Part shown: positions 25,001 through 57,466 of the stretch, piece after piece
Numbering within the stretch: position 1 is the stretch's first letter
Layout: each line of letters starts with the position of its first letter
NCBI GenBank assembly: GCA_021234535.1
Contig: CM037842.1
Location: 28,984,189 to 29,048,188, forward strand
DNA: 64,000 nt
Origin: Stichopus chloronotus
Taxonomy: Eukaryota > Echinodermata > Holothuroidea > Aspidochirotida > Stichopodidae
Direction: 5' to 3'
Made by a program: the position numbers and the translations under genes
The notes under the pieces: generated by a model
Seen by the model: only the letters and a program-made list of their open reading frames with translations
Told to the model about the DNA's origin: nothing
The model's database searches: none

Positions 25001-28000
25001 CAGTTACTGGATGTTGAATGTCCATGACAATGGTTATGGCAGGATCACCGGACTGGTTCCGAGCTTTGACGACAAGCACGTCTTTTCCTCTGCTGCGGAT
25101 GGCAACTTTTTCGTCTTCAGCATGATGAGCTCTGAACAGATAGAGGAAGCCCAGGCAGTCGCCAGGGCCAAGATTCCCTCAGCTAAGGTAAAGAAACTTT
25201 TGTTACTTGTATATATCCAGACAGTCACCATGGACAAGCTTCCATAGGCTAGGGTAAGGGAATGATGGTGGCTCATACCTCCTGTACAGTCACTAGGACC
25301 AAGATTCTATCAGCTAGTGTAAAGAAAATGATGGGGACTCATATGTCCTGGTAGTTGTTTCCATCTAATTTTAGATCTTGTTCAGAATGTGGGAGTAGTT
25401 TGTGATTAGTGTTTGCTTCAATGCCATGCAGAGTTTTGTTCTTGATGTTATTGTGAACATCTGTCTTTTCTCTGTTAGAGTTTCCAAGAAGAGAAACTAC
25501 ACTCTTTCAGTTACTGGTTGGTGCCCTATGAAAAAAAAAATGAAATTGCATAAAAAGTGTATAAAGTGTAATTCTTGAAAAATAGAATATTGTAAAAATT
25601 TAAGGTTTTTGAGTCAATATTTGCAAAGAAAAGATTTTCTTTTTAAAAAGACTATAAAAACATTCATGACACTTTTTATTTGAAAATTTATCTTTAATTA
25701 TCTTTATCTTTAATTTGTTTGTATACACTTTTGTCCAGAGAGATGATGAGTTGTTAAGGACAGTGGACATAGAGAGCAAGGATCATTACAGCATTGAACT
25801 GGAGAAACAGCAGGCAGAGTATGACAAGATGATGAAACTGGCTGAGGAGAAAAAGACAGAAGTCAGACGAACCATAGCCAAACTCAGGAGACAGTTTAAG
25901 AAACTGTTGGAGAAAAACCAGGAGTTGCCTGAAAAGCTCCAGCTTGAAAGAAAAGTAACTATTAAATATGTGATGTTAATCCAAGGTGGAGTTAAGTAGT
26001 ATTAACCGTTAGGAAGATTCTGCTTAAAGTAGCCCCTCGGCCTCCGCTCTTCCATTTCCTTGACAGTTGATTCTGACAACAAACAGGAATGAAATGCATA
26101 GTTCCATCACATTTACATTTATCAGAAATTTTCACATTTTTTTGTTCATGTCCATCATTTTTCTCAGGAATTTGAAATGGATCCTGGAATCAGACGAGAG
26201 CTTGAGAGGCAAACCAAGGACAGAATCGAGCTGGTGAAGAAAGAACTTGCTTGGGAGGCGGAGAAGCACCGCATCGCCCTGGAGAAACTTGAGCAGAGGT
26301 ATGTGATCTGCTAAACGTATGAAAAAATACTTTCTGTGTTCTTGGGATGTTTTAAGACGTTTGTAAAAGAAATGGGTTATGATGTTACATCAGGTGTTTA
26401 TTGTAAATGACAAATTTTGTCACCACTTTATTTTCACAATTGCTTTTATGGTAACCTTAAGGGAAAATAGGTTTTTGAGTATACCACCCAAGGTTAGCTA
26501 TGTTGTAATCTCTCGCAGGTTCAAAGCTGAGCTAGAGTGCGAAAGGATTGTGGTGGTCTCCGTCAACACTTCCCACCAGGTCTCGACGTACCGAACCACC
26601 GAACTGAGCAAGGAGTTTCACATCCTACGAGAGGAGATGAACCGCAAGCCGACCACGGTCTCAGACAAGGGCCCCTCTCGTGAAGCCACTCAGGATTCTA
26701 TTGGAGGGGACCCTCTTCTCTCCCAGTCTAACTCTGATGCAGCTCTAGTGACCGGTAGGTGGTCATAATGCAAATTACTAAAAGATCTGAAACAAACTTT
26801 GGAATGACTCTGAAGTTACCTTATCATTTGTTTGCTATTTATAGCTGCATACCCTTCGTAACCAGGAACAGTAGTGATCTGCTTGTATGGTTACCATGGA
26901 GACCAAAATAAGCTGGTTTATATGGTGGGAGTAACCATGTTGACTTCATCTGACTTGTCTCCGTCAGATTGATATTAGTAGCAATACCGAGTGGTCTGTT
27001 ATGTCTTAATGTGGTGTCATTGTACACATAGATTATTACCATTGTTATTAGTTTACTGTTTTTGCAAAAAGCTGTTGAAAATTTGATTGTTGGTGTGAGA
27101 ACAGATGGAACAGTTAATAGTGTGTGGCACAATCGACCGTTTTAATAAACCGAAAGACCTTTTTATCCACAGGTATGCAAGGAGCTAAAAAGCCAACGCT
27201 TTTGACAGGACGCCTCGGAGAAAAAGTTAATCAGGCACTACAAAAGGCAGAGAAAGCCAAGCAGAAGAGACTTGCTCGTCAAAAACAGGTGGACCTTACA
27301 AAGATTACACTTGAATGATGTCATGTGACTTGAATGATGTCATGTGACTTGAATGATGTCATGTGACTTGTATTCTCCATCGTTGGCTGCAGAATGATCT
27401 CATTAGCTTGTTTCTGATTTGCATCTCTTTGTTCTTGGTAGTGCTAGAATAATATCAACAATTCTAGAGACTGAGTAGGTGTCACCAGGTCCATCTTCCC
27501 TTTTCTAGTGTTGCCACCTAGTCCTCACAAAATGCACATAGTATGCTACAGTCATGTCTCGAGAAGACCTCTTGGGCATGATAGAACATGATGTGATATC
27601 CAGGTATACCATAATGGTTATGGTATGTTCCTCTCAAGAAGGCAAGAACATTTTTTTTTTAGGTTGTTGGAGAGTAATATATAACCTTGACAGGGTTATG
27701 TATGATATCACCACATATACCCAACTGTGATAAGCAGGTAGTTATTGAATGTCTACTTGTGTGGCCAATATGTCATATATAATTTCAGGAGTATTTAGTG
27801 ACAATGTAGGACATTTATATTTATAATTTCACTTCATAGCATGAAACCACTATAGCATTAACATAGCATTTTGGAACCCACCATAGTGGTATATTTGAGG
27901 TAAACTGCTGTTGCATACAGTTACTTATACTTGATCATGGTATCAATACATTTCATTTTCAGTGGGAAGAACTACGAGCCAGCAAACCTCCAGAAGACTA

Positions 28001-31000
28001 CGAAGACCCAGCCGATGTTCAGGCAATTAAGGAAGCCCAGGAGCACATGGGAGATTTTAAGCTGAAGACAGCCAAGGACTACGTCGTCCCGGAACACCTG
28101 AGGATGAACGCTCTCAAGAAAAGAAATCAGCTGCTAATCCTGGAGGAATTGGTGAGAATAAACTCAAATTAGTAGAAAAGAAACATCATGGTAGCTTTTC
28201 ACCTGCTTTGACATTATATTCAGAATGTGTGAGTAACGTTTGCACAGGGTGGACCAGCACACGGACTCGGATACCCACAGTCCATAGTCGATCAGATATC
28301 CCCAAAATAGAAGTGAGGCTACAAGTTTGTAGTGAAGTCATGCTTATTATTATAACACCATGTACCTTGTGCACATGCAGGACAATAAAGTGTACTTAGT
28401 TTAGCATACAAACTGAATCTTGTCACATGTATAATGGCATACAAGCTGAATCTTGTCACATGTGTAATGGCACACAAACTGAATCTTGTTTCATGTATAA
28501 TGGCATGCAAAGTGAATCTTGTCACATGTATAATGGCATACAAACTGAATCTTGTCACATGTATAATGGCATACAAACTGAATCTTGTCACATGTATAAT
28601 GGCATACAAGCTGAATCTTGTCACATGTATAATGGCATACAAACTGAATCTTGTCACATGTATAATGGCATACAAACTGAATCTTGTCACATGTATAATG
28701 TATGTTTGTGCTTCATGTAACAATTTCAGAAAAGAGTCCTGACATCATTAGTTGTAAAATTTGAAAGTCTATCGCGTGGTATTGTAGTTCAAGAGAGTAA
28801 ACTTTTCACTTCTGAAACTGTGGCATAGTTTGATATCAGTTGTATTTAAACATACCATTGTTGAGGATTGTTCTGGTCTTGGTACCTCCAGATGCACAAG
28901 TACAAGATGGATTTCAATCGGAAGGTCATAGCTCTTCGAGACAAGAAGATCAACATTATTGAAAAGATAAAGAAATACCTGAATGAGCTGACCGACCTAC
29001 AGGAAAACATCTCCGAAGACAAAAGGAAACAGCTTCCAGCATGCCCAACGTTACAACCCTCTGAAATCCCAGAGAGGTGAGAATTGGAATAAAAGGAAAT
29101 TGTGGCATAAAGTTGCTTCAGCAGCAACTATTGTCTTTGTTCTGTATATATCAGTGATATATGTTGGAGATATTTGCATATTCTTGCAACATTCTAGTTT
29201 ACTAACAAAGATAGAGGGCACTTAACTAAGCCCTTTCGAGTGATGTGTCATAGAAAAAACACGTGAACAACAGATCGTTGCATGATGTTGCAAGTTGTTA
29301 AGGCTCAGCTGGATTGTAAATTATGAGTTTTGTTAGTAATAAGTCCTCAGTTTTAAATGTGGACATATACTGCATAGTCTATTTATAGCTTCTTTGTTTT
29401 TGTCTATCTCTCTGTCTGTCTCTCTGCCTGTCTATATTTTAATAACTGGCTGTTTTGAACACACTGTGTCATGTGTTGTGCATGTTACTCTTCATTCTTG
29501 ACACCTGTCTAGTAGTGTTTTGTATCCTAGTATGCTGTGTACTGCATTACATGTTATTCTTTACTAACAGCAATGGACTATCATCAGTCAAAGTCTGTCA
29601 ATTTCTAGTTTTGTATCCTATTATTTGTGTACTACAGTATACTGTATGTCAGTATTTATTAGCAGTAATGAATATTCACGGGTCAAAGTCTGTCAAACTC
29701 TAGTGTTGTATCTCAGTATAATGTTTACTCTACTGTATGTCACGTTTTACTAGCGGCGATGAATATTCATATTAATTAATTAAAACAGTAACATGTAACA
29801 GGTGTAATTGGTTTCCCATATGTATCTCCTCAGGAAGTTTCAGTACACCAGAGAGACTCTTTTAAAATTTAAAGAGGAAATGGCCCAGAAGAAACTGGAA
29901 GCAATCACCGGCGATGGAGGGGGAGGATTTGGAGGGTTTGGTGGATTCGGAGGAGGAGACGGAGGGGACAATGCTACCAAGAAAGAGGTGTCTTCATTTT
30001 ATTTAGTTTTGAAGAAGAGAAAGGAAGAATTTAAACAAATATTCAAAGAGAAAAGATCCAAGGCTTTGCTAACAGAGTTGTGATACTCTGTTCTATTCTT
30101 AATAAAGTTGGTGACATGGCTTAACAACTATAAATCTTGCAAAAGATATAATCAGGGATGTATGATAAACCCGTTCAAACTAGACAGCAAAAAAGTCAGG
30201 AGAGAAGCAAAATCAATGTGAAGGTTTTATTAAATGTTAGATTAGTAAGCACTGAGCAAAGAATGTTTGATTTGTGGATGTTTTGTTAACACTAAATCGC
30301 ATTTTTTAGGCTGTAAATGTTTCAAATTTACCAGAAGCTTGAGTAAATTGAGAGAGAACCAATAAAAAGTCATTTGAACAAGAATTAAATACAAGGCAAT
30401 TTGAGAGAAGTGAGGCAAATTGTGAATAAATATTTGATATTTTGAATTGAATGGTTTGCAGTGTTGGTTCTGTTTATTCTGTAAATGTAAGGTGTAATTA
30501 GTGTTATACTTTGATAAACTATCAACATTGTTACATGTTAATGTGCTGGATGATTGGGAAATCTTGCAATGAGAGCTTCATGTGGTATCCTGAAGGAGTC
30601 CTTTCTAATTGTCAGCAACAACCATTTTTTCAAAGACTTATCTGGTTCTTATTTTAGCAGCAGAAGGTTGCCACCCCGGCCTCTGGTAGGGTAAGGTCAC
30701 GTATATCCCTCAGATCAGCCCAGGCCATGATGTCGCCTTCAGTCAGCCGTACAACAGGGAACCTCTCCTTGCTGGAGCAGCAACTCGCAGAGGCAGAAAA
30801 CATCAGAATCATCTACAGGCAAGACAAACTGCTTCAGATGATCAAAGACCTCATTGTCAACTTTGATGCTGAGTTGAGGATGCTGAGACACACTAAATTT
30901 AATCTGGACATTGATATCAAAAATGCTGATCTGAGGTAAGTGACATGTACATGTGACTGGCATGTACTGAACATGTGTGATTGGTATGTACTGTAAGTGT

Positions 31001-33082
31001 GACTGGCATGTACTGCACATGTGAGTGGCATGTACTGTACATGTGATTTCTATGTAATGTACATGTGAGTGACTTGTGTGCACATCAGTGGCAATGTACT
31101 GTACATGTGGGTCATATGCTATAGGAGTTATGCCACCTGTTTCTTTCATTATATTTTTTTTATCAACATTGGTATCACACAAAATTGTGATTGATGCATG
31201 TGAAGACAGTTCAAAGGGTAACACATCAGAATTCCGGAGACTAACCAACTTGTTTAAGGAAGTAGATGTTTTGATCTAATGCCTAATTCAAAGTTGCACA
31301 TGTAAGTTAGAGGAATGCATGATAATATTCAGAGGTGATTTAGAGTCAAATCTTTTGTATTAAAGGTACCTGTTGTAATTCATATTATTCAAACCTTTGC
31401 AGTTTGCCAACACGAAGTTATATTAACTGAATGCTTTATACTGCAAGATGAACTCCCAATCAACATTCATTTCTTCTTCATAGAGTAAACTATGTACATA
31501 TCAAAAGAAGCAATATATTGCTGCACAATTCACATACATAAGATGTGTTAGTCACAATTTAGCTGTACATATCTCTCCAGGAAGGTGACTTTATTTGAAG
31601 AACTTCAGCTCCTCAAGGAGTTTGAGAAGAGAGAAAATGTCCTGGCAGAGAAAGTTGAAGCCAAGATTAAAGAGAAGACAGACATGCATTTGAAGGTAAA
31701 CAGATTATCCATTTATATCAGTAAAGATAAAGATCACCTACTTGGAAAAACAACACAATGTAAGTGAAACCTTTGAAATGATTAGTTGTTGTATGGGATG
31801 TGCTTATAGTGTAAAACTAACAATGCATAATATCAATCTGTAAAGTGAAGTGATAAAATATTATACTTTGCTCTTACATTTATTTTTTAGACAATCATAG
31901 TAGCTGTAAACTTCGGTGAGATTCATTAATATTGTTCATTACATTATTTTATAGTATCAAAATAATTAATTTAACAGAAGTTTAATCAATATACGATCAT
32001 AGCAATTTAAAAAAAAGTCTGCTGCTTGATCAAAAGTGTTGTAAGGTTGACCCCACACACCCTCTTTAAAACTTGACTCACCCACTCAGTGAGGTTTGTA
32101 AATGCTGGTGACATTTTCACACTCAAATATAATAATTGTGATATTCATCTTGTCTTTGGTCCCATAGCAACCTTTTTGTCTCACCTCGTCTTATTCCTTG
32201 GTATTCTAGGTAATGGAGATACAGCAGAAGCATGACAACAAGCGTAAGGACATCGACAGACTCACCGAGAAGGAGAAGGCCCTCTATGCTAATTTTCAGG
32301 CTTCCCTCGGGGAGAACAACAAATTTGCAGAGTTTCTGAACAAAGTGTTCAAGAAGAAGATCAAAAGAGCTAAAAAGAAAGCTCAAAATGAAGAAGGTGA
32401 TTATGGAAAATAAAATATTGTTATGACCTCAGCCAGTGGAAATTTGTAATGTTAATGTGACTCTTGGATTAATTAATCCACAAATATTTTGGTCTTTATT
32501 CCTGCAATGTTTGTGTAATGTTTTACAGCCACAATTAGATACTGAGGTGTTGCAGTGCTGGTGGAGTATGGTGAATATTGTTTTACTAACAAACTATTTT
32601 GAAATTGCAAATAATGCAGATGAGAAATTTCATTAGAATGCTCATTCAGATTGTCTGTTCATTTGAATTATGTAGATAACCTCTCAAAATTTAATGCTCC
32701 CCATCTGTCCAGTGACTTTTGATGTTTCATGTCTTGTGATTTCCTGACAGGCAAAGTGTGTTTTCTGTGAAAAACTAAAACTGAGTCATATTTTGACCTG
32801 TTTGATGATGTCCTTGCTAGTTTCTGTACATCTAGTCATGTTTCCTTGGGTGGTATTTACCTCTTTCCGTTTTCGACTCGCCATCGCATGTAATTCTTTT
32901 TTGTGTCTTCTCAGGATCGAACGATGATGAAAGTGAGGAGAGCTCAGAGGAAGAGTCTGATTGGTCCAGTGAAGATGAAGAATCAGATGATGACGCTCTC
33001 GATGACTCCGTCTGTCCTCCGGGATGTGAACAGGTCAGTCTAGATGATGATAATGATGATGATGATGATGAGGATGATGATG

Positions 33083-33116
<34 letters not shown>

Positions 33117-36100
33117 GGATGACGATGACGATGACGATGACGATGATGATGACGATGATGATGACGATAAGGATGATGATGATGATGACGATGATGATGA
33201 CAATAATGATGATGATGAGGATGATGATGATGAGGATGTGATGATGATGACGATGATGATGAGGATGATGATGATAATGATGATGATGAGGATGATGATA
33301 ATGATGATGAGGATGATGATGATAATGATGATGATGAGGATGATGATAATGATGATGATGATGAGGATGATGATGATGATGATGAGGAGGAGGAGGATGA
33401 TGATGAGGATGATGATGAGGAGGAGGTTGATGATGATGATGAGGATGATGATGATGATGATGAGGATGATAATGATGATAATGATGATGAGGATGAGGAT
33501 GATGATATGATGATGATGAGGATGATGATGATAATGAGGACGATGATAATGATGATGAGGAGGAGGAGGAGGATGATAGGGTGTCAGCTCTATTTCGAAA
33601 AATTGATATGACTCTGGATGATGATATGGCCTCATGTAGAAAAACAGAGTTTTTATAAAAGCAAACATTTAATACCAACATTGACATATCACCATTAAAA
33701 ACTTAAAAGTATCTACCAATGTGAGACCTTTCTGGTGATAGTTTCAGTAGACTGAGGTAGTTCCAGTTGACACTACATCAATCAGAGCTATGTATGATAT
33801 GAACGGACATTGCAGAGAAAGCTTTGTGGAGTATTTCCACAAGTGTGAGATGAGATCTTTGTTTTCATGGTTACATTATTGGCATTCTCTTTTTGCTGAC
33901 TGGGAGACCGAAGCACAAACTGAGGCTATAATGTAAGACTTTACTAATAGTCACAGCATCCCATGGATTGTCATTAATTTGAGAAAGTATCGTTGCAAAC
34001 ATTGAATTCTTATTACACCTGTGTGTTTTTTTATGAGTTTACAAAGGGAGGACAAAATAACTCAATTCACCATACTTCAAGTAATGCTTGATAAAAACAA
34101 AGAAAATTGTAGCAACTGGCCTCAGGCAGTGAAAGAAACTGCCTAACGGGGGATGGATGTTACTGAAAATACATAAAGCAGTAAAATATGTATAAATACC
34201 GGTAGACAATAGCAGTCAGGAATGAATGTGTATCCAGAATGGAAGAGAAAATGAATATAAGTGTGGAAGTCAATCTCTGAAGAAATTAACAACTTCAAGC
34301 ACCATTCCCAGAAAATACAGATCAGGAAGAAAACACTCTGCCTTTAAGCAAACACAACACAAAGCATATCCTGACATTGGCTGTAAGGACTCACAAACTG
34401 AATATCTCAAGCAGTTTCATGACAAGATGTTTAAGTAAATGTTACACATTTTACCTCTACATTCCATTGTAAATTATTGTAATGATGTCGGAAGTAACAT
34501 TGAATATTCTTTCTCCTGCTCTCTTCCTTAACATTCATCGTCTGTGAAGGAGCTTTTCGACAACACATGTTCGCTTCGTGAGAAGAGGCTGGACATCGAG
34601 GAATTGATGGCAGAGGAGAAGAAGACTGCTGATAGTCTGAAGAAGGAAGTAGATGCCCTGGTGAAGAAACAGAAGATCATCGAATCAAACCTGAAAACAG
34701 CAGAGGCTGACCTCGAAGCATTCCAGGTACAGCGATGGGTCTCAGTCCATCTAAGTCTGGGCAGATTGTGGTTTGACTTAAGTGTGTGAGAGAGAGAGAG
34801 TGAGTGAAGGTCCCGGTTTGTCTCAAAGAATCTGTTGGTCCAGTAGAAAAGATAAAAACAAGTGTTTAGTTCTGTCCAGTAACTGACAAGATTGCTAATC
34901 CTCTTTAGAGTATTTGAAGCATGTGAAACTGGAGCAGTTCAAAGAAAAATGAGGTTTTGTAACTTAACTGAAATCTTGAATGAGCTCCCTGAATTTCACG
35001 GCTTATACAAAACTTGCGGTTAGCTGGATTTTATTAGAAAAAAACATCTTACTCCTGAAACAACAAGCAACAGTGCTTATTACACACTCTATGTTAACAT
35101 ATCTTGCTCAAACTCTCCTTGTTATGTGTTGAACTTGGATGTCAGAATTGCCAGGAATATGATGAAAATATGTACTTTTTTCCTTAAATAACTTTGAACG
35201 TTTTTTAGCAGAAACAAGAAATCAAATAATGCAACAATTCCACTTTAATAAACCTCAAAGTTGATGATTGTGCACAACAGATATGAGAGACAGACACGAT
35301 GTCCTCTTTTTGTGGTACAGCAGAAGCGACATCACATCAGATTCAGTGGAGTAAAATAAACACTGGGCAAGGCACCATGTCATAATTCTCCATTCTTATA
35401 TTACTATGTATTGGATGGAAAACAGTGAATATTCAATTATTCAAATTTAGTAAAGATTACCATTTATTGCTTTGTAAGGTTTTGATCAATGAAATGTTTT
35501 TCTTTGGTAATTCAGCTGGAGAAGCAGCAAAAGTTGAATGAGTTGGATGTGGTAGTTACCCTCCGGTTCCATCAGATCGAGTACATGGTGAATGGTACCC
35601 TCCCACAGGACCTCTCCCCGTGTCTCGTCTTCACCACTCAGTCCATCAGGAACCTAAAGAAGAGAATCTTGGAACTAGAAGAAGAGAAAACAGCCCAGAA
35701 GAGACATTACAAGTAAGAATTGTCGTTGGAAGAAGAAAGTAAGCTACAGTGGAAGGAGACATATGGAAAATAGAAAGAAATTTAATGTAAGAGGTGAAGA
35801 GATGGTGAAAAGTAAAATAAACGTGAAGAGAATGAGATGGGTAGATGCAGGGAAGATGCAATTAGAGGATGTTGAAAGGTAGCTTCAGGGAGGAGATGGT
35901 GACATGTGTAACAAAGGTAAGGGTGATATGAAGATAAAGGTATTAGGTGGTTTGGAAGGTATGATGATGATGAAAGGAATACAAGAGGAGAAGATGAAGG
36001 GAAGATGAAGAGAACAGACAGTGAAACTCAGATGGCAGGAAGAGATGGTGAAAGGTAAAATAAAGGTGAAGATAAAGGGACAACGAACTAAAGATGATTA

Positions 36101-39100
36101 GGAAGGGAAGATGGAGATGCAGTGAGAAGATGAAGGGAAAAGACAAAAGATAGATGAAGGGCATTTGCAGATAGATGGATAGATGAAGGGCAATTGGAAT
36201 CAATGATACAGATGATTTGATAAAGATGTTGAAGGAAGATCCAGGATGAATGTGTGTGATGCAGCAGGTATCAAATGTTTGATACTTCATGTTTTCAATG
36301 TCTGACTCTCTCATTTTATTGCATATCATTGTGTGAGGATGAATACAGTTCTTTGCACTTGTTGCACTGCTAAGGTTGTTATGTTGATGGTTTTGTTTTT
36401 TGGCTCTCAGGGAGCACCGTCAGCAGCACATCCAACTGATCAAAGACCGTAGGCTGATGGAACAGAGGATTGAAGACCTCAGGGAGCAGTGCAACCAGGC
36501 CATGAGACTCAAGTTTGGACGCATCATAGACCTGGACAAGCTCGAGACGGTTGGAGTCAACAGAAACATAGAAGAACTGAAAGAGAAAATAAGACTGGGT
36601 GAAATGGATAATGCCAAGGATCTTGAGAAGATGGATGTGAGTATGAAACATTACGTATTGCATTCTCTGCTCTTAATTCTGAAAGAGCTATTTTTATGTC
36701 TCCTGTCTCACAGTTGTGAGAACAGAATGTAGATCTGAAATTTTCACAGACAGGTTTTCTGTATCAACGGAAACATCAGTTAAATTTTCTTTTAAGGTTT
36801 ACACATCAGCGTAATGCAGTTGTTGGAACAAAGAATATCCTAGTGACTGAGAAATGTGAAGCAATATTGAGTTTGATCTTTTGTTCCATATCAATAAATG
36901 GAAGTAGAGAAAGTCGTCTGCTAGTATATAGATACACTTTTCATAGCAGTTGAAGGACAACTTGTGACAACTTTATTCCTCAGTCTCTTCTTTCCCCAAA
37001 CCTCAGGCCAAGATCGAAGAGAAGAAGCACCGTATCACGGAGCTGATAGAAGAGAACACACACCATCTCCAACTGATGACCATGAAACTGGGAGAGAAGA
37101 AGGAACTTGAAAGAGCTCTAGATGCAAGACAGACAAGTTTGGTAAGTAGTAGTATTGACTCATAAATTTGTCATCTATTTCTGGAATTTTGTAATCATCA
37201 TGTATAGTATGTATTAGTATATGGTTTATGTGGTTTATATGGTATATGTAATCATCATGTATAGCATTTAGTGGTATATGGTTATTCTAGGAATACCAAA
37301 AATCATATGCATAAATAATGAACATGTTTAGTGTGACACAAAAAGTTTCAGGAGGGTAGCTCAGCCCTCCCTCTGAATGAAAATTGATACCCTCTGAAAC
37401 AGAAACTACTCCCATAATACTGCTCCTTGCAAAGTTCTGCTTGACCTCCAAAAACAGATAATGCTATTTTAAATGAAGATCTACCTTAATGTTGGTTGTC
37501 TCTGTGTGGCACCATTTTGCATCTTAATTACTGGAAATGAGGGAAGAACCGCCTCCTCCCTTCAGACCCTCTTACCTGGCAATCCATCTCCACCTTTCCT
37601 TGATACCCACAGAGAATGTCGTCTATCACATGCAGTTATTAACAGTCTCTCCCCATTGAGGTCTGCTGAGACACACACACACACAAACCCACAAACAAAA
37701 AAATCATTAATTTTAACCTTGTTCTTTCTTTACAGATGTATCTTTCTGAAGTGGTAATTTTTATTGTTATGAGCAAAGTTAATGTGTTTGTTTTCACAAT
37801 TGTGGATTTGTTTTTACAGCTTTGCCTGCTTAGCAATAATTTACCGAAATGAAAATCTGATTATCAAAATTTACACAACTTTATAAGTATTGACACCACT
37901 TTATTAGTAGTTATGCAGAGTGACTGTGTCATGTATTGCGCTGTTGGTTGATGTTTATGATTTTCTGCTCCAGTGAATTAGTTATTTAGTTTAGGGAAGT
38001 AAACTTTAAGTCTTTCATACTGTTTTCTGTCGTAGCTTTTTTGTTCTGGTTCTTGTCATTTCTGTTCTCCAATTTCTTTTACAATATTTTTGTGAATTTA
38101 CTTCACTTTTATTTCAGTTCTTCTCTACTTTTAAGTTGTCCTTTACACTGCATCAATGTTTTGATGTTTGCTTTTTATAAACCAATTACCTATTGCATTT
38201 CTCGGTTCTTTTGTTCAACTTGTATTATCATTTGAAGTTGGTCTTTGTTTTTTTACAACAATTACCTATTGTATTCCTCTGTTGCTTTGTTCAACACCTT
38301 TTGTTGCTTCGTATTCATTTTTGTCTTGATCAGGAGATGCATTTTGAGTACCTAAGACCTAACATTCTTTTAATGCAGTTTTTTCCCCATGTGACCTATA
38401 AACATGCCACATCAAAGGCTTTAAGCAGCTCCTTGCATCACAGAAGAAATTTAGGTGTAAAACTACCAATAACAAACAGGCAATGTAGTTTTAATTTGCA
38501 TTTCACAATCAATTAGGAATAAAACTACCGATAGCCAACAGAAAATGTAGTTTAAATTTGCATTTCGCAATCAGTTAGGAATAAAACTACCAATAGCCCA
38601 CAGAAAATGTAGTTTAAATTTGCATTTTGCAATCAGTTAGGAATAAAACTACCAATAGCCAACAGAAAATGTAGTTTAAATTTGCATTTCACAATCAGTT
38701 ACGAATAATATGGATGCAAAATGTTTCCTTGGTATGTCTTGTCTAGAATTTCTCAGCTGGGTCATTTTGTCCAAAGTTTGTCTGTTGGGGTTTAGGTTTT
38801 TTTTCTCTCCAATCTTTTTCTTTTCAGTCAGTTTTTTACCCCGTAAACTTAACATAATGTGTGATTAATGTTGGGGACAAATAAACATCAGATATTGAAA
38901 CAGTATTTCAGAATCACCCCTTTGAAAGAACAAAGAACCAGGAACAAAGACACCAGACTATAACTTTCTTTCTGACCTGCCTCTGTCAAAGTGCATGGAA
39001 TTACTTTGCTAGTTTCTTTTTTTTCACTAATTGTGCAGTAACAAGCACTGCATTCTTGTTGCTGAATCTATCATAGACCTTTTTTGATGGTCTTTGGCAG

Positions 39101-44771: not shown

Positions 44772-45157
44772 AAATATGTCACAACCATTACAGCAAAATT
44801 CCCTGATGAGAGAGGACGTACAAACAAACGTACATTGGCCTAACAGAGAACACATTCAAACAGAGATACATAGCACACAAAAGCAGCTTTAAAAATCGTA
44901 CAAACAGAAATGCAACAACGCTTAGTCAATACATCTGGAATCTCAAGGAACAAAAAACCGATTTTTCCATCAAATGGAGAATTGTCGACAGAGGTAGTCC
45001 TTACTCAACCTCCACCAAATCCTGTAACCTTTGCACAAAAGAAAAGTACTTTATAATCTATAAGCCAGACAAGGCCAGCCTGAACAATAGGAACGAGTTA
45101 GGATCAGCCTGCAAACATAGAAAGAAGCATCTATTGTGCAATTTTAATCCAGGCTGA
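44772..45157 (+). pseudogene. Penelope-like element remnant, GIY-YIG end
   Basis: The frame from 44813 reads TYIGLTENTFKQRYIAHKSS, then NATTLSQYIWNLKEQKTDFS, IVDRGSPYS and SCNLCTKEKYFIIYKPDKAS, ending with a stop at 45155-45157. This is the C-terminal GIY-YIG nuclease region that Penelope-like retroelements of marine invertebrates carry. An upstream piece (KYVTTITAKFPDERGR, from 44772) is in another frame, so a frameshift lies near 44825-44830. No reverse transcriptase is present: a dead 3' fragment. Confidence 0.8.
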
Positions 45158-45959: not shown

Positions 45960-48027
45960 ATGAATTTGTTAGCCTTGAGGTTTCAATGGGCCATAGTTTT
46001 GGTGGTGCTACCAAAGGATTACTCCGACGTCACTACCATGAAAAACATGTACTATGGACATGCAAAGATAAATGCTGCCTTTTACAAGGTGAGACGTGAA
46101 GCCGTCCAAGCTTACCTGGGGAATTATTTTGAAGATTGTCATGGAAGTAAGTCGTATTTGTAAGTCAGTAATATTTAGCGTGTTGTTGGGTATCCACCAC
46201 GAGCATCTTTGAATGGTTGGCCGGGAGCTAGGCAGGACTGGGGACATGTATATCTACTTTCAAAATCAAATCGAGGCCCACAATGGTTCATTTGTAAGGT
46301 AAACTCGAAGTTACTCACTAACGAGTTTTAGTGTGATAGCAAACGTATGCAATTTGGCAAGAAAAATATATGTAGCATTTTGAAACATTTACGTAAGTTA
46401 CACTAACCCTGGTGTTTTAAATGTTGTTTTACTGCAACGTATCAGTACATTCTGTTATCATGATCATGAGGAATACTGTTGAATTTTCTTTATTCTAGGA
46501 TATGAGTAAGAGGATTCAATTGTTGTAATTGGCATTACAACAACTGAAAAATGACAGAACTTGGCCTAATTGTAGAAACAAATAATGAATCCGTTACATG
46601 AACATTCATTCATCATTAGTAGATATAATCAGAAGAGGAAAAAGTATGACATTATTTAATCACTATTGTATTGCATTCATTGGTGTTTATGGTATTAAAG
46701 TGGCTCATTGAGTTGTCTTGTGAAATTCACTAAATTTTTACAGACCTGTGACAGTCGTTTTCTTCACATACTCATGACAAATGATCAAACTAAAAGAAAC
46801 CGCATGTGTCCCATACAAACAAACATTAATGAGTCAGTAAATAACTATTGAAATTAGTTTTTTTTTCAAAATTCGGGACCAGACATTTTTTACAATGGTG
46901 CTAGTTCATATGAACACAGCCCGTACAGGTCAAAGTCAAAAATAAAAAAAAAATTCACAGTTTTCATAGCTGTTAGGAACGTGTATTTGTACCCTTCAAA
47001 ATCCTCACACCCTTATCGATATCAACTCAATGAGCCCCTTAATTTAGTTCTTAATGATGCCTTTATATCTTTCAGAAGGTTTTCTTTTAAATTGTTCCTT
47101 TGGAAAGTCAATGTAAAGAAGAAAAGCAAGCGTGTTTACGTAAGGTTTCTAAAATTGTCGCACGGTTAATGGTTTTAATTTCACTTCCGTTAACTATTTA
47201 TGATTTGTCATTACTGGAAAGTAACAGAAACAGTTGCTATGACAGGTATGTATACATGTCACTCATAATTGTTTTCAGATTCCTTGCTGAAGTTACCAGA
47301 CAGGTATCCAGAAAATATGCTAAACACCAGCTGTGACGGTGCAGTGGCTATTATCATGTACGGAAGCTTCGAGACTGATGCACTTGATGACTTACCTAGT
47401 GACCTTAGACATTTGTATAATACTTCTTTCGAAAAGTTAGAATTTCATCTTGGTTTTCTAGAAAAAGATAACACCACATTTGTGAAAATACCAATGGCCC
47501 AATTCACTGACAGCCCAACGGCAGTGTTTCCACCATTCTTTGGTGAAAAGATCACTTACATCGAAGAGATCGTTCGAGATTCTAATGGTACAGTGATACT
47601 CAGGAACGGAAGTGACGTCATGAAGGTTGCACTTCCAACAAGGCCGTGTTCTGAGGGAGATGATATACCATCTCACACCAAGGAGTGGAAAGACGTAAGA
47701 ACGACTTTGTGGACATTACGTCGAGAAGCTGATTGGTCAATATGTGAACGTTTGAACTGGTCTGGATCAGTCTGCCAAAAGTTGAACCAACATTTGTGTG
47801 GCTTGTCAGGTGTAGGAGGGGACTTCTGTTACAAGTTGAGGGAGGTTAAAGGGAAGAGCAGAAGATGTAAATCATCAATAAGGGTGGAGGAGGTTACAGG
47901 CATCTTCAAGAAAGCAGCTCTTCTCTCTGAGGAGGAATCACTGGAGGCGTTTGATGCCGAGTGGATAGAAGGACATCTTGAAAATGACATAATTTATCCT
48001 TGTTTGAGACAAAACATACTGACTTAA
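45960..48027 (+). CDS. Secreted Cys-rich glycoprotein, array copy 1
   Basis: I do not recognise this family. Two exons, 45960-46146 (donor GTAAGT) and 47279-48027 (acceptor GTTTTCAG), are joined by a phase-1 intron and give 311 residues. MNLLALRFQWAIVLVVLP looks like a signal peptide. Exon 1 then codes a helix-prone segment (YYGHAKINAAFYKVRREAVQ) ending at Cys60. Exon 2 has KLPDRYPENML, a SCDGAVA motif, KLEFHLGFLEKD, QFTDSP, FFGEKITYI, NGTVILRNGSDV and the cysteines PC, SIC, VC, LC, CYKLREV, RC and PC. It ends in FDAEWIEGHLENDI. Nine cysteines are shared with the two downstream paralogues, and there are about six NxS/T sequons. There is no transmembrane helix after the signal peptide, so it is probably secreted. 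The start is chosen because all three paralogues align from Met-Asn-Leu. A role in defence, adhesion or extracellular matrix is possible but unsupported. Confidence 0.85.
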
Positions 48028-50328
48028 AAAGTTGGTTTACTTTCGTTTTGAGGAACTTTAGGTGTGTTAGGAATGTTGGTCTTGATACGTTACGACATTC
48101 TAAGTACTGTTTGTTCTGGTTAGATATACAATAATTGGCATCTCTCTTTCTTCGTTTCTAATTACCTAATACATGCACAAATAAGATAGGGAGACTATGT
48201 TACTGCATGTCACCAATACTTATCTTACATAAAGTCGCCCTACCTACATATCTAATGTAATTTATACGATACTTAGTCAACACAGACGAATAATTACCTT
48301 GGTAAAGATTGATTATTATTTTTTTTTGTAGAATTTAAATATTACAAAAGACAAACAAGGTAGCTGAAAGCAGAAGTATAAAACAAAGTCATTAAGAAAA
48401 TAGAAAATTTGGTTACGTATCAAAACCAAACTGGACATGAGCACTTACTATCTGGCATTTACAACGTTGAAATTAAACTGATCATATGTAGAGTTGAGTT
48501 AGTTGGTTTGAAGGGAGAGGGAGGGGGCAATATTGCATACAAGAGTTGAAGATGTAACCAAAGTCATTGCAAATGACTGACACGAACCAGAAATTAGAAT
48601 ACTGCATATTGCCAAGGGGTATGGAGTAAATTATTAAGTGACTACATTAATCTGGAAGTAGGGAAAACGAAGCCATAATGAAAGAACCTTAAGAAAGATC
48701 AATCCTTTGAAATCGGTTGAAAAATAAAGAAAACAGCAGAGAGAATAAATACTGTTACATATTTCAAACTTACTTGATTTTTAGCACTAGATGTAGAAAG
48801 ACCAGATATGTCAGAAAGCCTTTTGCACAAGAACACTATGCATATGATAGTCGTACAACTTACTAGCACAAAGGTCACTGACATAAACAGTTTGTAAAGT
48901 GTGAATGTGGTAACCTTTGCAAATTATGGTTTTAATACTGTCAGACTAAATCTTTAAAGGGTGTACAAATATGTGTTATGCTTTCAAAAACCCTTGAATA
49001 CGGCTGGCACTGATCATAACATTCCCTGTTTGGTAATTGTGATTAATTTCCGTGATAGGAATTTATATGACCCAGGCTCGTGTGCAGCTTTTTCAGTGGG
49101 GGGTTCGATTTTGCCATAATTGGAACATTTTACAAGACAATTATGACCAACAAATCAAAACTCATTGTATATGTTGCTAACGTAGGCCTGCTATCAAAGA
49201 CTGAGCGGAACTCCAGATCTTGTAGGGGGGTTCGTCCGAATCCCCCCCCCCCCCCGATACAGGCCCGTGGCCGATATATAATTGTCTATTAGGTTCTCGT
49301 TCATGCCATGAAAACAAACGCACAGACTAAGGCAGTCTATTAAAGGCTACCTAACGTTAACGTTCGACAGATTAAGTGCAAATCGATTTAATTTAACCCT
49401 CTGTTCAAGGCTATAAGTGACTTAGGCCTGCAGCGAAGCAGTCTGAGACATACCATACTGCTCTGTCCAAATTCCAACAAATTGCCAGAAAAAAAGTTTC
49501 ACGGTTTTTCTAATCTTTATGCACTTCTCCATGTCATCACATTCTTGATAGACTTTTTACAAGAATTTAGTTTTACAACAGGATGGAATGAGTTGAGAGT
49601 CAAAATGCAAATAATGTTTGCATATACCCAAATATTATATAAACAAATACACGATTTACAAACATTCTAGACAGGGAGACCTGCCTAACGTATCGGTGAA
49701 TGAGCCTATACTTAATACCGTATTGTAATAGGCCACTTAACATTTACATGTGGCACTCTTGAGGAAAAAAAGCGTAATTGCCGATGTTTTCCTCCAATCT
49801 TGTCACATACATGTTTTCTCTGCTATACGAATCTTTTCGCAAAGCTTCAATTTGTTTCAGGCAGTAATTAGCCGTGAAATAAACTGAACGAAAAATATGC
49901 GATCACGTGACCATCTGAAAACGCAACCAAACACAATAATGGACATGCTGCTCATGTCCACCATTTTTTTTATTTTAACCAAAAAACGTCAACAGGTCAT
50001 AAACATAATCGTAGTACATGGGCGTAAACGTACAGCCCACTGATTAACACAACGGACATATTCAATAAACGTATATATAATCTAATATAATCGGGATTGT
50101 AGTGCAAGTATCTTTAAAACGACTTGAACCGTGCTAGTCATTAAGCCGTTTTTGTGTTATAATGGTTGGCTTTGACTATTGCATTTATTTTGACATATTC
50201 ATAGATTAACGTAAATATCAAGACCACCCTATGGGTATCCTGCAGCGACTCTCCTCTATTCAACCAAATAAATCATATCACCATGGTAACTGTTCAAAGA
50301 AGCAGTTTGGTATTAATAACACATCGGT
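48028..50328. other. Intergenic DNA between array copies 1 and 2 (left part)
   Basis: No gene seen. A piece at about 49070-49275 has two GGGGGGTTCG words, a C-run (about 49242-49255) and CCCGTGGCC, which suggests a short transposon fragment. Confidence 0.5.
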
Positions 50329-50640
50329 ATGATACAACTAACAACTACAAAGCAATTCGTTACTGATAACATATCAAACAGTGTTCATTCTTTCAATACC
50401 CGCTGTAAAGATATTTTTCGTCCCCATTTCTCATCCTCATCTATACACCATCGTTCCATATGTTTCAGCGCCCCTGGATTTTGGAATATCTCAATTCAGA
50501 AATTAGATCGAAACGTAGCTTCTAGTGTTTTACGGAAGCGCTTAAAAATATCTTACTAGAACATCCTAATATATAAACATTTTTCTCTTTGCTGCTGTCG
50601 CTTGATAATGATTTGCTACCATTTTTGTAGCTGTTGTAAG
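50329..50640 (+). pseudogene. LINE reverse-transcriptase C-terminal tail remnant
   Basis: The frame 50329-50559 reads HSFNTRCKDIFRPHF, HRSICFSAPGFWNISIQ and VLRKRLKISY then stop. The pattern H-x-Y/F-NTR, R-xx-S-I-x-F-x-x-P-xx-WN-xx and a final basic FKxxLK-like helix is the typical C-terminal tail of non-LTR retrotransposon ORF2. The reverse-transcriptase core is absent, so it is a 5'-truncated copy. Confidence 0.6.
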
Positions 50641-51821
50641 GAAGGGGTGTTACGAGGGGGGTAGATAGAGAGAGACATCAGAATGAGGGGGGTGGAGACA
50701 TAGAGACGTCAGAGAGAGGTCGACTTGATTTCATGATCAAAGTTTCATTCATGGGCCTATTTAAGGGGGGAGGGGGTCGCTCCTTTCCTATTTCAAGGGA
50801 GTTTAAGAATTCTTCAGATATAATTTTCCACAATATCAGGCTTTTGTGTCCAGTTTGTCTACTTGCTATGGCTGGATGTACTCACGCTGAGCCCTCATGA
50901 TTACTTGCATTAATCCCAGATCGTGCACTATCTTACAGTTAATACAAGGTCCAGCGTTGATTAACTTTTTTTTTCAAATCTACCATCAAATAGAGCAACA
51001 TTTTGCATCTAATCCACCCTAGGTTAGCAAAAATTTCCTTGAAGGGTAAGGGACACCGCTTACCTTTGACCCCTCTCCAGGACGGGGATCAGTCACCATC
51101 CTGTCTCCCCCTCCTCCTTCTGCCAAATCTTGGATCCACTTCTGCCATTCTTTGTTGCTCTCATATAAATTATTGATGCTTATGGTGGTGACGACTTGTG
51201 ACTAAATACATCCAAGGAAGTTGTCAAAGAAGAAAGGCGGTACAAAAATATAAAAATAACATCACGGAGTGTTGAGGCGAACTGGGACAGTTGCTTTGTG
51301 GCTGAATGGAATCGAGGCCTTCGCTTGCGCCCTCAAGATTTCTGCAAGCTTCGACCAATGATGAAATCTCCTCGAAAAAGTGAGTGACGTAACTAGTTGT
51401 CAACCAATGGGGTTATCCACACTGAAAACATCCCAGAGTAAATGAATAGAACATCGTCACTAAATAATTCATGAGGGTTTGATGGTTCTAGACATGTTAT
51501 GTATCTCTTTGTTTGAGTCGACCGGAGATGATATAAAAAGTTAATACTTTCTAATTCTTTGACACATCTATTTACACACTCACACGCACACACACATATA
51601 TATATTTATATATATATATATATATATGCACACAACGACAAAACAACAAGACGATGTCGACATGTTAATTACATGGTAGAGTAATTTAATTGATGATATA
51701 AAATTTATTATCATCTGCACTCTTGTGGAAGACAGAGTTAAATATAAATTTTTATCTAATTTCCTCTCTTGTAGGTAAACAGAGTCAAGTAAAACTTACA
51801 CGGGCATGAATATATGTTAAG
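50641..51821. other. Intergenic DNA with low-complexity tracts
   Basis: GA/GGGG-rich stretches at 50640-50780, a C-rich transposon-like stretch at 51050-51120, and an AC/TA microsatellite at about 51585-51626. No gene is seen. Confidence 0.5.
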
Positions 51822-52066
51822 TATATAACGATGTTTCCATTCACTGTAAAGAAGATAAATATGGTAAGACATGCACACTAGACTTTGTGGATAAGGCTCA
51901 ATTTTTCAGTTTGTCTTTTGAGCTTTTAAAAAAGTGCATTTTGTTGGAAGTGTATATGTATTGATTATCGATTCACTTATAGCTCAGTCTATCATCTCCA
52001 CTGAAAATGAACAGAGAGACAGGACTTTACTTCTGCTGACGACAAAGAGAGAGAGAGAGAACATTC

Positions 52067-53777
52067 ATGATGAATCTAGTGTGCGTTCTTAAAGTCTCGT
52101 GCCCGGTGATTTTATTTATCTTGGTATCGAATGTTGATTCTGAATTGATCCGAGATGTTTACTACCATGAAGCGAAGGTCCATGCTGCCTATTACAAAGT
52201 GACACGTGATGCAGCTCAGTCATTCATCACTACCTATTTTGACAGCTGTCACAACAGTAAGAAGAATTTATTGGTCATTTTGATTCTGTTTATTGTCTAG
52301 GTTAGAATATGAAAAAAAAAAATTACGTTAATTTTCTGTAGAAGGTATAGTTTCGACAACCAGAACTCACAACAAAAGATTGTAACTTACATCATTACGT
52401 TAATAATAAATATCCACGTTCAATATCAACGATAAATTTTGTTACATGTGCTTATAATTAGTTTCTAGAGCTATACCATCACTTCACAAGACGGTTGACT
52501 TGAACATTGCTGACTCCGAGATCAGAGAAACATGGCCACTCCTACATGGCCACTCCTACATGGCCACTCCTTGATGACATTGTAAAATGTACTTATAAAT
52601 GGCAACATTTAGTTTATTTCGTCTATACATACACACATACACTATGAAATGTAACAGAGGACCATACAAAACGGACAAATTAGAAAAAAATTAAAGAAGT
52701 ATTAAAAGGAAGAAAACCTAAGCAGCAGGCTTCTTTAGCTTTAAGGGGAATTTTAAGTTTGCTTTTAAAAGTAGCATACGGTAGTTACCGAAAACTAACT
52801 CTTCTGAGTTACCCGGAATGTAGTTACTGTTTCCCGGAGGTTCTTCCCTCAAATTTGAGTGATATGTAATAATAATCATTGCATCAAATAATGGTAGCTA
52901 CAAAATATGTGAAAATGTTCTCTCGTATCATAATAAAGTGAGTTTTGTGGATAGGGTCTGTGTTTCTTTCTTTCATTCATTCATATATATTAATTGCATC
53001 ATTTTTCCGGCAGGTTCTTTCGTAAAAATACCAGATCGCTATCCCGAAAATATGTTGAACTCAGATTGTGACGGTGCAGTTGCTGTCTTGATTTACGGTA
53101 TCTACAAAACAAATGCTTTGGAAGAAGCACCCGCTAATCTTCGAGACTCGTTTAGCACTTCTTATCAACATTTGGAATTTCATCTTGGCTTTCTTGAACG
53201 AGAAAATGATGAAGAAAATTTCTTTCACATTCCAATCAACGTCTTTACCGACAGTCCTCAGACGGTGTTCGGCCCACTATTTGGGGAAAAAGTTACCTAT
53301 ATTGATGCTATTGATCATTACCCCAATGGTACGGTAATGCTTCGAAACGGAAGTGACGTCATGACACTATTGGTATCCGAGCATCCCTGCTTTCAGAAAG
53401 GTAGTATACCACCTCACATAAAAGAAGAGTGGAAAGACGCAAGGTCAAGTTTATGGGCATTAAGTCGAGAACCTGATTGGTCAATTTGTGAAACGTTAAA
53501 CTGGTCTGTTCCTGTCTGTCGAAAATTAAAAGAAAATAATTTGTGTGGCTTAGTCAGGAAAGAATGTGACGTTTGTTACAAGTTGAGGGAGGTCGAAGGA
53601 AAGAGTAGAAGATGTCAATCATCAATAAGGTTGGAGGAGGTAACAGGCATCTTCAGGAATGCATCTCTTATATCTGAGGAGGAACCACTAGAGCCGTTCG
53701 ATGCTGAGTGGATAGAAGGTCATCTTGAAACTGATATTTATCATCCATGTCTATGTGATTCCTCTGACTTAAACTGA
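52067..53777 (+). CDS. Secreted Cys-rich glycoprotein, array copy 2
   Basis: The second paralogue, 317 residues, has exons 52067-52256 (donor GTAAGA) and 53014-53777 (acceptor TTTTCCGGCAG) with the same phase-1 junction. It begins with two Met codons and a hydrophobic signal peptide (VCVLKVSCPVILFILVSNV). Exon 1 carries KVHAAYYKVTRDAAQSFITT and the conserved Cys. Exon 2 has IPDRYPENMLNSDCDGAVAV, HLEFHLGFLERENDEENFFH, NVFTDSPQTVFGPLFGEKVT, NGTVMLRNGSDVM, WSICETLNWSVPVCRKLKEN, CYKLREVEGKSRRC and FDAEWIEGHLETDI. It has an extra Cys before CYK (ECDVC) and an extra one at the C-terminus (PCLCDSS). A GA tract sits just before the ATG. AATAAA at 53992-53997 is a plausible polyadenylation signal. Function unknown. 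Confidence 0.86.
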
Positions 53778-55685
53778 ACTCGTCAATTAAATCAGATACA
53801 AATATACTATTTCTCACATAGAAATATTTCAACAAATTTCGAGCGTATACATCAAATCCTTTTTTGATCCCCTTCTCCTATACCTGTAGCAAGGAGAATT
53901 CATCTCCATTTTTATGCTATAGCTGCTACATAGATTAGATTATTCTGTATGCAAGAGTCAAGATAATTTACCAGACCTCCGAATCATTACAAATAAAACT
54001 GCATTGCATGTCCCAAAGCCAGTGAAGTGAAAGTTGAAGGATGGTCGTTTGTACATTGAAAGGTGTACCTTATATGCAATCAAATAATATTCATTGAGAT
54101 TATCATTAGGAATGAGGGTGATGTAAAGATATCTGGTACTTGGGAATGTATCAGGGGCAGACTTAGGCCGGCCTCTCAAAAAGTTGATTTTTTTTCCCAA
54201 CTTCATATAAAACAGTACAAAGCCCAATCCAATCAGCGCACTAGGCCAATGTGATGTGTCAGTGAAGATTTGCTGATTATTTTCCACCTCAAAATACTAG
54301 TATTTCTCTGAAGAGTTACTTGATTGTGTCACCCAGAATACTAGAACCCTGATAATATTATGGCTCGTATGAAACACAGTAAAACTTAGGCCAACTCCAG
54401 ACATTACCGGGAGTATTACTCTCTTTGGTTACTCATGATCACTATATTGAATTGGATTGCTAACTTCAGACTATTACCAGGGTAACCAGGCCCACAGAAA
54501 ACTTCTTTCTACTTTCAAGAGACTTCATCTATAATTTTCCTCTATCTCACTGGCTTTCGTGCCATATCTCTCAGCACCTTTAGTGTCTTACCGAAAGTCA
54601 TGCAACTGATTTGGATGGAGATTCTGGGTGATCCGAAGAAGAAGTAACTCATACAAGAAAGTATCATTTGGCTATGTGGAACCATTAATCTGAAACCCAT
54701 TCTATGGAGAATTTCAACATTGCGTGACTGCAGTTGACACATATAAAGTGGAAGTAAAACAGAACATACACCTTTGTTACATAATAAATCTGTCACAGAG
54801 ATTTTACTTTCTTGATCGCTTGTTTTCGACCAACTCGGTGGCAGAGACAGTGACACACGGTTTGAAGTATAGCCCATATGACAACACTGGCATCAGTTCC
54901 ACTGTTTTCTCTTACTATTAAACGTTTAAGGTATTAAGTTGTTTTCTATAATATACTCGTGGTATGCATTATCGACCTCTCTGTACCCTCTAATGGCAAC
55001 ATACTCAGAAATAAACGTCAATATAGGTTAAATGTAATATAACACAATTATTTATCTTCCAAATAAAATGAGTAGATATGCTTGCAATATTACTCAATCT
55101 TGTATGAAGGCTCATTTCTTTGTGTGGATGTAATATTATGGACTTTTCACAAAATTATCACGTTGGCATTGCATCTCGACTTGGTTAATTAATCCAATAT
55201 TTCACACTTTATTCATATACATATAACTAACTCTGCTGGTACTGTTCGAATTATAGCAGTAGCTAGTAAATATTTAAATTTTAAATAAAGCGTATTCCTA
55301 AATTAATTTGAAAATTACGGTTACCTGCAGGATTGTTTAATGTTCCTTAATTGTTTTTCTTATTAAAGAGCTAGTAGAGAAGTTGACTATGCGCATATTG
55401 CTAGTCCAGTTATATCGTTGTGGATTCGTAATTGCCAAATGGTTATTTGTCAAAGATAACATAAAAATTCATAGCTGGGAAATCAGTAAAAATATTTGCC
55501 CTAATAATAGGTTATTGCTTAGCAATGCTTAGACAAGTTCCCTGTACCTATCAGTAAGGTGCTTTTGAAATCTAAAAAGCAGTAAATTTCATTTAGAATA
55601 TATTTGAGGTGTGTTTGGCGATATTATGAAGTCAGAAAAGCACTGCATGTTAAACCCCTCATTAATAAAACATAACAAATTCAGA
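53778..55685. other. Intergenic DNA between array copies 2 and 3
   Basis: AT-rich. A possible transposon scrap at 54150-54250 has GGGGCAGACTTAGGCCGGCC. The short frames at 54542-54921 show no recognisable homology. No clear TATA box precedes copy 3. Confidence 0.5.
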
Positions 55686-57466
55686 ATGAATTTGCATATG
55701 CTAAGAACTATATGGACGATGTTTTTAATGGTTTCAACAAACGTTTTGGCCAACGTTGTATTGACGAATATGTACTACGAACACGTGAAAGTCAACGCCG
55801 CGTATTACAAGGTGTCACGTGATGCAGCGCAATCTTTTATAGGAACTTATTTCGATGACAATTGTGGAGGTAGGTGACATTTGAAATATTGTGATTTGAT
55901 TTATACGGAAAATACTTATCTATTGTATACTAGACTTTCATCTCTGGCTTATTGTCTATAGTCAATAATAATTGAAAATGCGTACTGTCATAACTAAGAT
56001 AGAATGGAGCAAAGCTACAGAAGGCTAATTAGTCACCTACTTATAGGTGTTTTTCCTGCAGCCACGAGACAATGGTTTTGTTTCCTTTTGATAAGTGATT
56101 TAAGACTACAGAGGACAGCATACGAGGGAAAGAAAATCATCCCTATATGCCTGCGAAAACAAGTAAAATATTACCATACATCTTGACAGACACTGATGGT
56201 GTTTCTTTAAGAAATGTCTGCTACTTATGCAGCTACTTATGTAGTATCCATACCAAATATTGTATTTACATAACAAAGTGATAGGACGTTGTAACTTAAA
56301 ACTGACTTTTATTCAATATGTAAGTAAACGTAGTCTGAAAGACATCTGTAACTCCTTTCAAACTGAGAGATTACAATTTCCAATGGATTCGGACAAACCA
56401 AGTTACACTGCAAACTGATATATTGTATTACAAGTTTGCACTGAATAATTCCATTATCACCCTACTGCCACTACTATTCCACTGGGTGGTATGTTATATT
56501 GTATTGCCAGCTTTGTGGCATGATACTAACTAGTCTTCTAATTTCAGAGTACTCAAAACTCCGAAAGAGTGATCAAACATTTTAGTATGATTATCAGCTT
56601 TCTTCCTGAACGACTAATCCCTTTTAACATAGACTGTAAACGTAAGTAAAAACACACGATGTAATTTTAACAGGAGTAGTGGATGCGTATAGAAGACATT
56701 TATTCTCTGACTTTCAGATAACGTTTTGAAGTTACCAGATAGCTATCCAGCTAAAATGCTCAACTCAAGTTGTGAAGCTGTTGCCATGTTATTGTACGGT
56801 ACCTATGAAACAGATGCTTTAGCTACCTCACCACTTGAACTACAACGTTCGCTTAACACTTCTTATGAAAAGTTAGAATTTCATCTTGGCTTTCTGGAGA
56901 AAGATGAAACCACTTTCGTGAATATTCCAATTGCCTGTTTTACTGACAGCCCTACAACAGTGTTTGGACCATTCTTTGGCGAGAAAGTCACTTACGTGGA
57001 AACAATTGATCGATACCCAAACGGTACCGTAATCATGAGGAACGGAAGTGACGTTATTAAGATGACCCTACCTAAACATCCGTGCTCTGAAAAAGCCGAG
57101 ATTCCGTCTGATACAGACATCGAGTGGAAAGAGGCAAGGTCGAGCTTATGGACATTGAGGCGAAAAGCCAACTGGTCAATTTGTGAATCATTAAAATGGT
57201 CAGTTCCTGTCTGTCGGAAGTTGAAAAAGAATCTTTGTGGAATATCTCGAGCGGGAGGGGACTTTTGTTACAAGCTACGGGAGATCAAAGGGAAAAGTAA
57301 AAGATGTAAATCAACAATGATGGTCGAGAAGGTTACCGGCATCTTTAGGGAAGCATCTCTTCTGAATCAAGGAGAATCACTAGAGCCGTTTGATGCCGAG
57401 TGGATCGAAGGACATCTTGAAACTGATATTATGTATCCTTGTCTGAACGCTGATAACATCCTATGA
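55686..57466 (+). CDS. Secreted Cys-rich glycoprotein, array copy 3
   Basis: The third paralogue, 310 residues, has exons 55686-55869 (donor GTAGGT) and 56718-57466 (acceptor CTTTCAG) with a phase-1 intron. The frame is open upstream to another Met at 55626, but the signal peptide (MNLHMLRTIWTMFLMVSTNV) and the paralogue alignment favour 55686. Exon 1 ends KVNAAYYKVSRDAAQSFIGT and YFDDNC. Exon 2 has KLPDSYPAKMLNSSCEAVAM, YEKLEFHLGFLEKDETTFVN, CFTDSPTTVFGPFFGEKVTY, NGTVIMRNGSDVI, WSICESLKWSVPVCRKLKKN, GGDFCYKLREIKGKSKRC and FDAEWIEGHLETDI. It has one extra Cys (ACFTDSP). Several NxS/T sequons are present. Function unknown; closest by eye to copies 1 and 2 throughout exon 2. Confidence 0.86.

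Follow-up and report, generated by a model that had tools for sequence, protein, structure and literature searches.

Three tandem genes for an orphan family of probably secreted glycoproteins in Stichopus chloronotus

Described secreted families and the present locus

The Sp185/333 (Transformer) proteins of sea urchins are described as secreted products of small, clustered genes divided into two exons, the first of which codes for the leader and the second for the mature protein (PMC5491942; PMC3091723). In these proteins a glycine-rich part is followed by a histidine-rich part, an RGD motif occurs in most members and diversification is strong; the term "cysteine" is absent from the review (PMC5491942). 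Ependymin-related proteins offer a second point of comparison, being secreted glycoproteins with conserved cysteines and tandem expansion in some animals, with a reported median length of 213 aa, four to six cysteines in set positions and a beta-sheet fold with a deep pocket (PMC6280359). A third is provided by the SCRiPs of reef corals, a secreted cysteine-rich family with no known homologues when described, whose processed products measure 41-48 aa (PMC2652719).

The window analysed here, a stretch of 64 kb of Stichopus chloronotus DNA, contains three genes (copies A, B and C) which share features with each of these families and are not filed under any of them. Like the Sp185/333 genes, they are small, clustered, divided into two exons and probably encode secreted proteins. 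Their exon 1 also codes for about 35 residues past the signal-like stretch, one cysteine among them. In contrast to that family, the proteins are conserved, with 9-11 cysteines in the mature part, low glycine (4.1-6.3%) and histidine (1.4-3.8%) contents and no RGD motif in any of the three. When compared to ependymin-related proteins, the products are longer (310-317 aa), with eight invariant cysteines plus one that is nearly aligned and no Pfam match; a kinship below the sensitivity of sequence profiles may exist, though only distantly so. The SCRiP products are far shorter than the approximately 285-290 aa of the three proteins.

Gene structure of the three copies

The copies are arranged head-to-tail on the + strand between positions 45960 and 57466 of the window. 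Exon 1 of copy A (45960..46146, MNL start, GT donor at 46147) is an open frame encoding a signal-like hydrophobic N-terminus, followed by a conserved YYxxxKxxAAxYKVxR stretch, and one cysteine; exon 2 (47279..48027, AG acceptor at 47277-47278, phase 1) provides the remainder of the protein with eight invariant cysteines and the stop. Copy B consists of an open exon 1 at 52067..52256, with the GT donor at 52257, and an exon 2 at 53014..53777 with a phase 1 acceptor, additional cysteines in the mature part and the stop. Copy C follows with an open exon 1 at 55686..55869 (GT donor at 55870) and an exon 2 at 56718..57466, again with a phase 1 acceptor, the eight invariant cysteines and the stop. 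Each copy has a single GT..AG intron in phase 1, and the coordinates give intron lengths of 1132 (A), 757 (B) and 848 (C) bases. The sequence-only reading had proposed three same-strand genes with this two-exon structure and the junctions 46146/47279, 52256/53014 and 55869/56718; predicted splicing at these positions yields intact frames of 311, 317 and 310 aa for A, B and C, bearing out the proposal.

The start of copy B is an ATG-ATG pair, so that 52070 may serve as well as 52067, and in-frame ATGs lie upstream of the start taken for copy C. All three aligned copies open with M-N-L, and this conserved beginning supports the chosen starts in spite of the upstream ATGs of copy C. No fourth copy was detected in the 64 kb window by tblastn at E values up to 1.

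Divergence and selection

The three proteins are clearly related, with pairwise BLASTP identities of 62.8% (A-C), 60.3% (B-C) and 56.5% (A-B) and a weakest E value of 8.7e-132 in the three-sequence comparison. Differences at codon positions 1, 2 and 3 amount to 101/64/152 for A-B (310 codons), 71/52/144 for A-C (308 codons) and 105/56/148 for B-C (310 codons). Nei-Gojobori estimates over the whole coding region gave Ka/Ks values of 0.31/1.63 for A-B (ratio ~0.19), 0.23/1.31 for A-C (~0.18) and 0.31/1.32 for B-C (~0.23), where Ks is rough since 62-66% of synonymous sites differ and saturation is close. Three other frames counted per gene contained 14 to 27 stops. The excess of third-position changes, together with Ka/Ks ratios near 0.2, indicates that A, B and C are protein-coding genes under purifying selection, with a coding signal that far exceeds chance. 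Taken as an average across all codons, so low a Ka/Ks argues against a rapid arms race.

While exon DNA still matches between the copies, neither the introns nor the flanks (1 kb upstream and 1 kb downstream) gave a blastn match between them at E 0.01. Since flanks and introns can no longer be aligned, the tandem duplications look old, and the copies appear to have been kept by selection on the protein.

Cysteines, glycosylation sites and secretion

An alignment of the three copies reveals eight invariant cysteine columns. The total number of cysteines is 9 in A, 10 in C and 13 in B, two of those in B belonging to the signal-like stretch. The nine conserved cysteines noted from the sequence alone hold for these eight columns; the ninth, in exon 1, falls one column later in C (column 63) than in the other two copies (column 62). 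Repeated N-glycosylation sites had been noted as well, and the counts agree, with six sequons in A and five each in B and C, among which an NGT and NGS pair (columns 169 and 176) is common to all three.

In every copy the strongest 11-residue hydrophobic stretch is the N-terminal one, with mean Kyte-Doolittle values of 2.1 (A), 2.9 (B) and 1.8 (C), compared to best values elsewhere of 1.7, 1.9 and 1.5. The sequons and the hydrophobic N-terminus make it likely that the proteins are secreted glycoproteins. Two points argue against a clean signal peptide, namely the small margin in copy C and the cleavage site of copy A, which by eye looks weaker than the sites in the other two copies. The approximate pI is 4.9-5.6 and the mass 32-34 kDa without glycans. 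A heparin-type, glycan-binding motif (XBBXBX), which has one shared position in A, C and the relative P0001 described below and a different one in B, was dropped from consideration as chance-level, as it arises in 543, 311 and 560 of 2000 shuffled proteins (16-28%).

Searches for relatives and predicted structure

The family had been called unrecognised, and profile and sequence collections gave no reason to revise this. No Pfam family was found for the three whole proteins at E values up to 5, NCBIfam returned no matches, and two profiles had none among PDB sequences. When six exon-2 halves and P0001 were submitted to Pfam, only chance-level matches were obtained (STAT2_C, E 0.26; RNF180_C, E 0.15), and a single PHROGs match, from one of three members at E 0.13, was taken as noise. 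Rfam had no match in the 64 kb window. Literature queries with peptide strings of the family and at topic level brought up no recognisable description of it.

Among approximately 5.8 billion proteins, a collection understood to comprise mainly prokaryotes and metagenomes, one relative was detected, with the same result in searches with 1789, 3165 and 217 candidates. This protein, P0001, is a 193-aa fragment from a 6617-base ENA contig, with identities of 72% to A, 69% to C and 64% to B, and it keeps all seven invariant cysteines within its span. It differs in starting at an internal methionine, without the NGS sequon, and in ending a few residues after CKSS, at least 46 residues short of where the family's proteins normally stop. 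This early end may reflect an intron in the contig, a broken copy or faulty gene prediction. None of the 55 viral and 134 genome stretches (viral and prokaryote contigs) that matched a pattern encodes a relative.

Structure prediction and fold searching, which had been suggested as a check, have been carried out for exon 2. The two AlphaFold models are poor, with mean pLDDT values of 38.2 and 40.2, and fold searches with them gave nothing usable. Both low-confidence models place strands at about 21-31, 51-63, 66-69, 95-99, 103-109 and 111-117, with helices following at around 162-176, 202-211 and 226-244. This pattern merely hints that exon 2 may comprise a strand-rich first half and a helical second half, where most of the cysteines would lie.

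Proposed role and alternatives

In the best explanation, A, B and C would represent a conserved family of old standing, whose members are soluble, secreted glycoproteins that bind something outside the cell. The gene anatomy, the codon-position bias, the low Ka/Ks, the diverged flanks and introns and the conserved cysteines favour it, as do the absence of a stronger hydrophobic stretch elsewhere in the proteins and of any Pfam enzyme or domain match. It is held at about even confidence as a whole, most of it belonging to the secreted-glycoprotein part; the binding role itself is inferred. According to this model, exon 1 would provide the signal peptide that directs the protein out of the cell, and would also encode the beginning of the mature chain. 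In its first half, exon 2 would form a strand-rich, glycosylated face carrying the common NGT and NGS sequons, with the conserved cysteines locking the helical second half and tying the first, possibly through about four disulphides, which would leave one odd cysteine for pairing or free. The protein would then circulate or be deposited outside cells and bind an extracellular ligand or partner, for instance in body fluid, mucus or an egg coat, and the copies might split tissues or ligands between them.

It is tentatively possible that the genes belong to a known secreted family and have diverged too far for sequence profiles to recognise them; a family with a ligand-binding beta-barrel or cup, like the ependymin-related proteins or the lipocalins, would be an example. 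The several strands that both low-confidence models place in exon 2's first half would be consistent with this, and ependymin-related proteins are secreted glycoproteins tandemly expanded in several animals; nonetheless, the sizes and cysteine numbers given there (~213 aa, four to six cysteines) are unlike those found here (PMC6280359). The Pfam results for the whole proteins and for the seven pieces also weigh against it, as does the lack of a fold match from the poor models.

An unlikely reading is that of a new extracellular family with its own fold, combining a strand-rich glycosylated half with a helical disulphide half, confined to one animal lineage and maintained by strong selection for a role that no known family performs.

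The sequence-only reading proposed a lineage-specific family, as this one may be. If truly confined to one lineage, a conserved and probably secreted family without a Pfam profile would merit a profile model of its own and structural work, and its low Ka/Ks separates it from many fast-evolving orphan secreted genes. Orphan secreted families are common in animal genomes, and on its own the family raises no question of long standing. The sequence-only reading had gone further in suggesting an undescribed system; what stands is a tandem-expanded family of probably secreted, cysteine-containing glycoproteins, and the three paralogous genes give no sign of a system. It is a functionally unexplained family, orphan in the collections searched, ordinary in kind and not a new kind of system.

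Reproductive proteins, or those of venom and other secretory glands, often evolve fast, so that Ka/Ks ratios of about 0.2 make it quite improbable that the copies are tissue-specific members of such a group, even if secretion, tandem arrangement, cysteine content and old divergence would all suit it. An immune effector cluster working like Sp185/333, in which small two-exon secreted genes are made against microbes, would share the leader-first exon pair, the clustering and the secretion described in the review (PMC5491942), but is judged still more improbable given the lack of RGD, the composition (4-6% glycine, 1-4% histidine), strong purifying selection in place of diversification, and the absence of common element mosaics or near-identical repeats around the genes. 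Pseudogenes or chance open frames, for which nothing was found beyond the in-frame ATGs upstream of copy C, have a negligible probability and are refuted at the family level by the intact frames of all three copies, the third-position bias and the low Ka/Ks.

Surroundings of the genes

Two translated frames matching CFAP44, a protein of the cilium, are located upstream on the + strand, at 13186-13611 (best E 1.5e-40) and 36388-36729 (best E 2e-9). FAP44 of 8glv (Chlamydomonas, by entry title) is the best-scoring entry for the second frame, and is outscored by the three top entries for the first. Together with the long introns and the repeats, these matches point to an animal genome. CFAP44 gives no clue to what A, B and C do. 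A frame between the two, at 24747-25244, shows weak WD40-type matches below curated cut-offs. Two further + strand frames, at 44810-45157 directly before copy A and at 50320-50559 between A and B, might be terminal parts of retroelement proteins (Penelope-like and LINE); neither has a Pfam match. Several tandem repeats also occur in the window, namely minisatellites at 23303-23799 (period 50, 9.8 copies) and 28404-28700 (period 33, 9.0 copies), both situated between the CFAP44-matching frames, and at 38451-38708 (period 62, 4.2 copies), a GAT trinucleotide array at 33043-33577 with 179 copies and 83% matches, and a perfect 14-base repeat, present three times at 52530-52571 within the intron of copy B.
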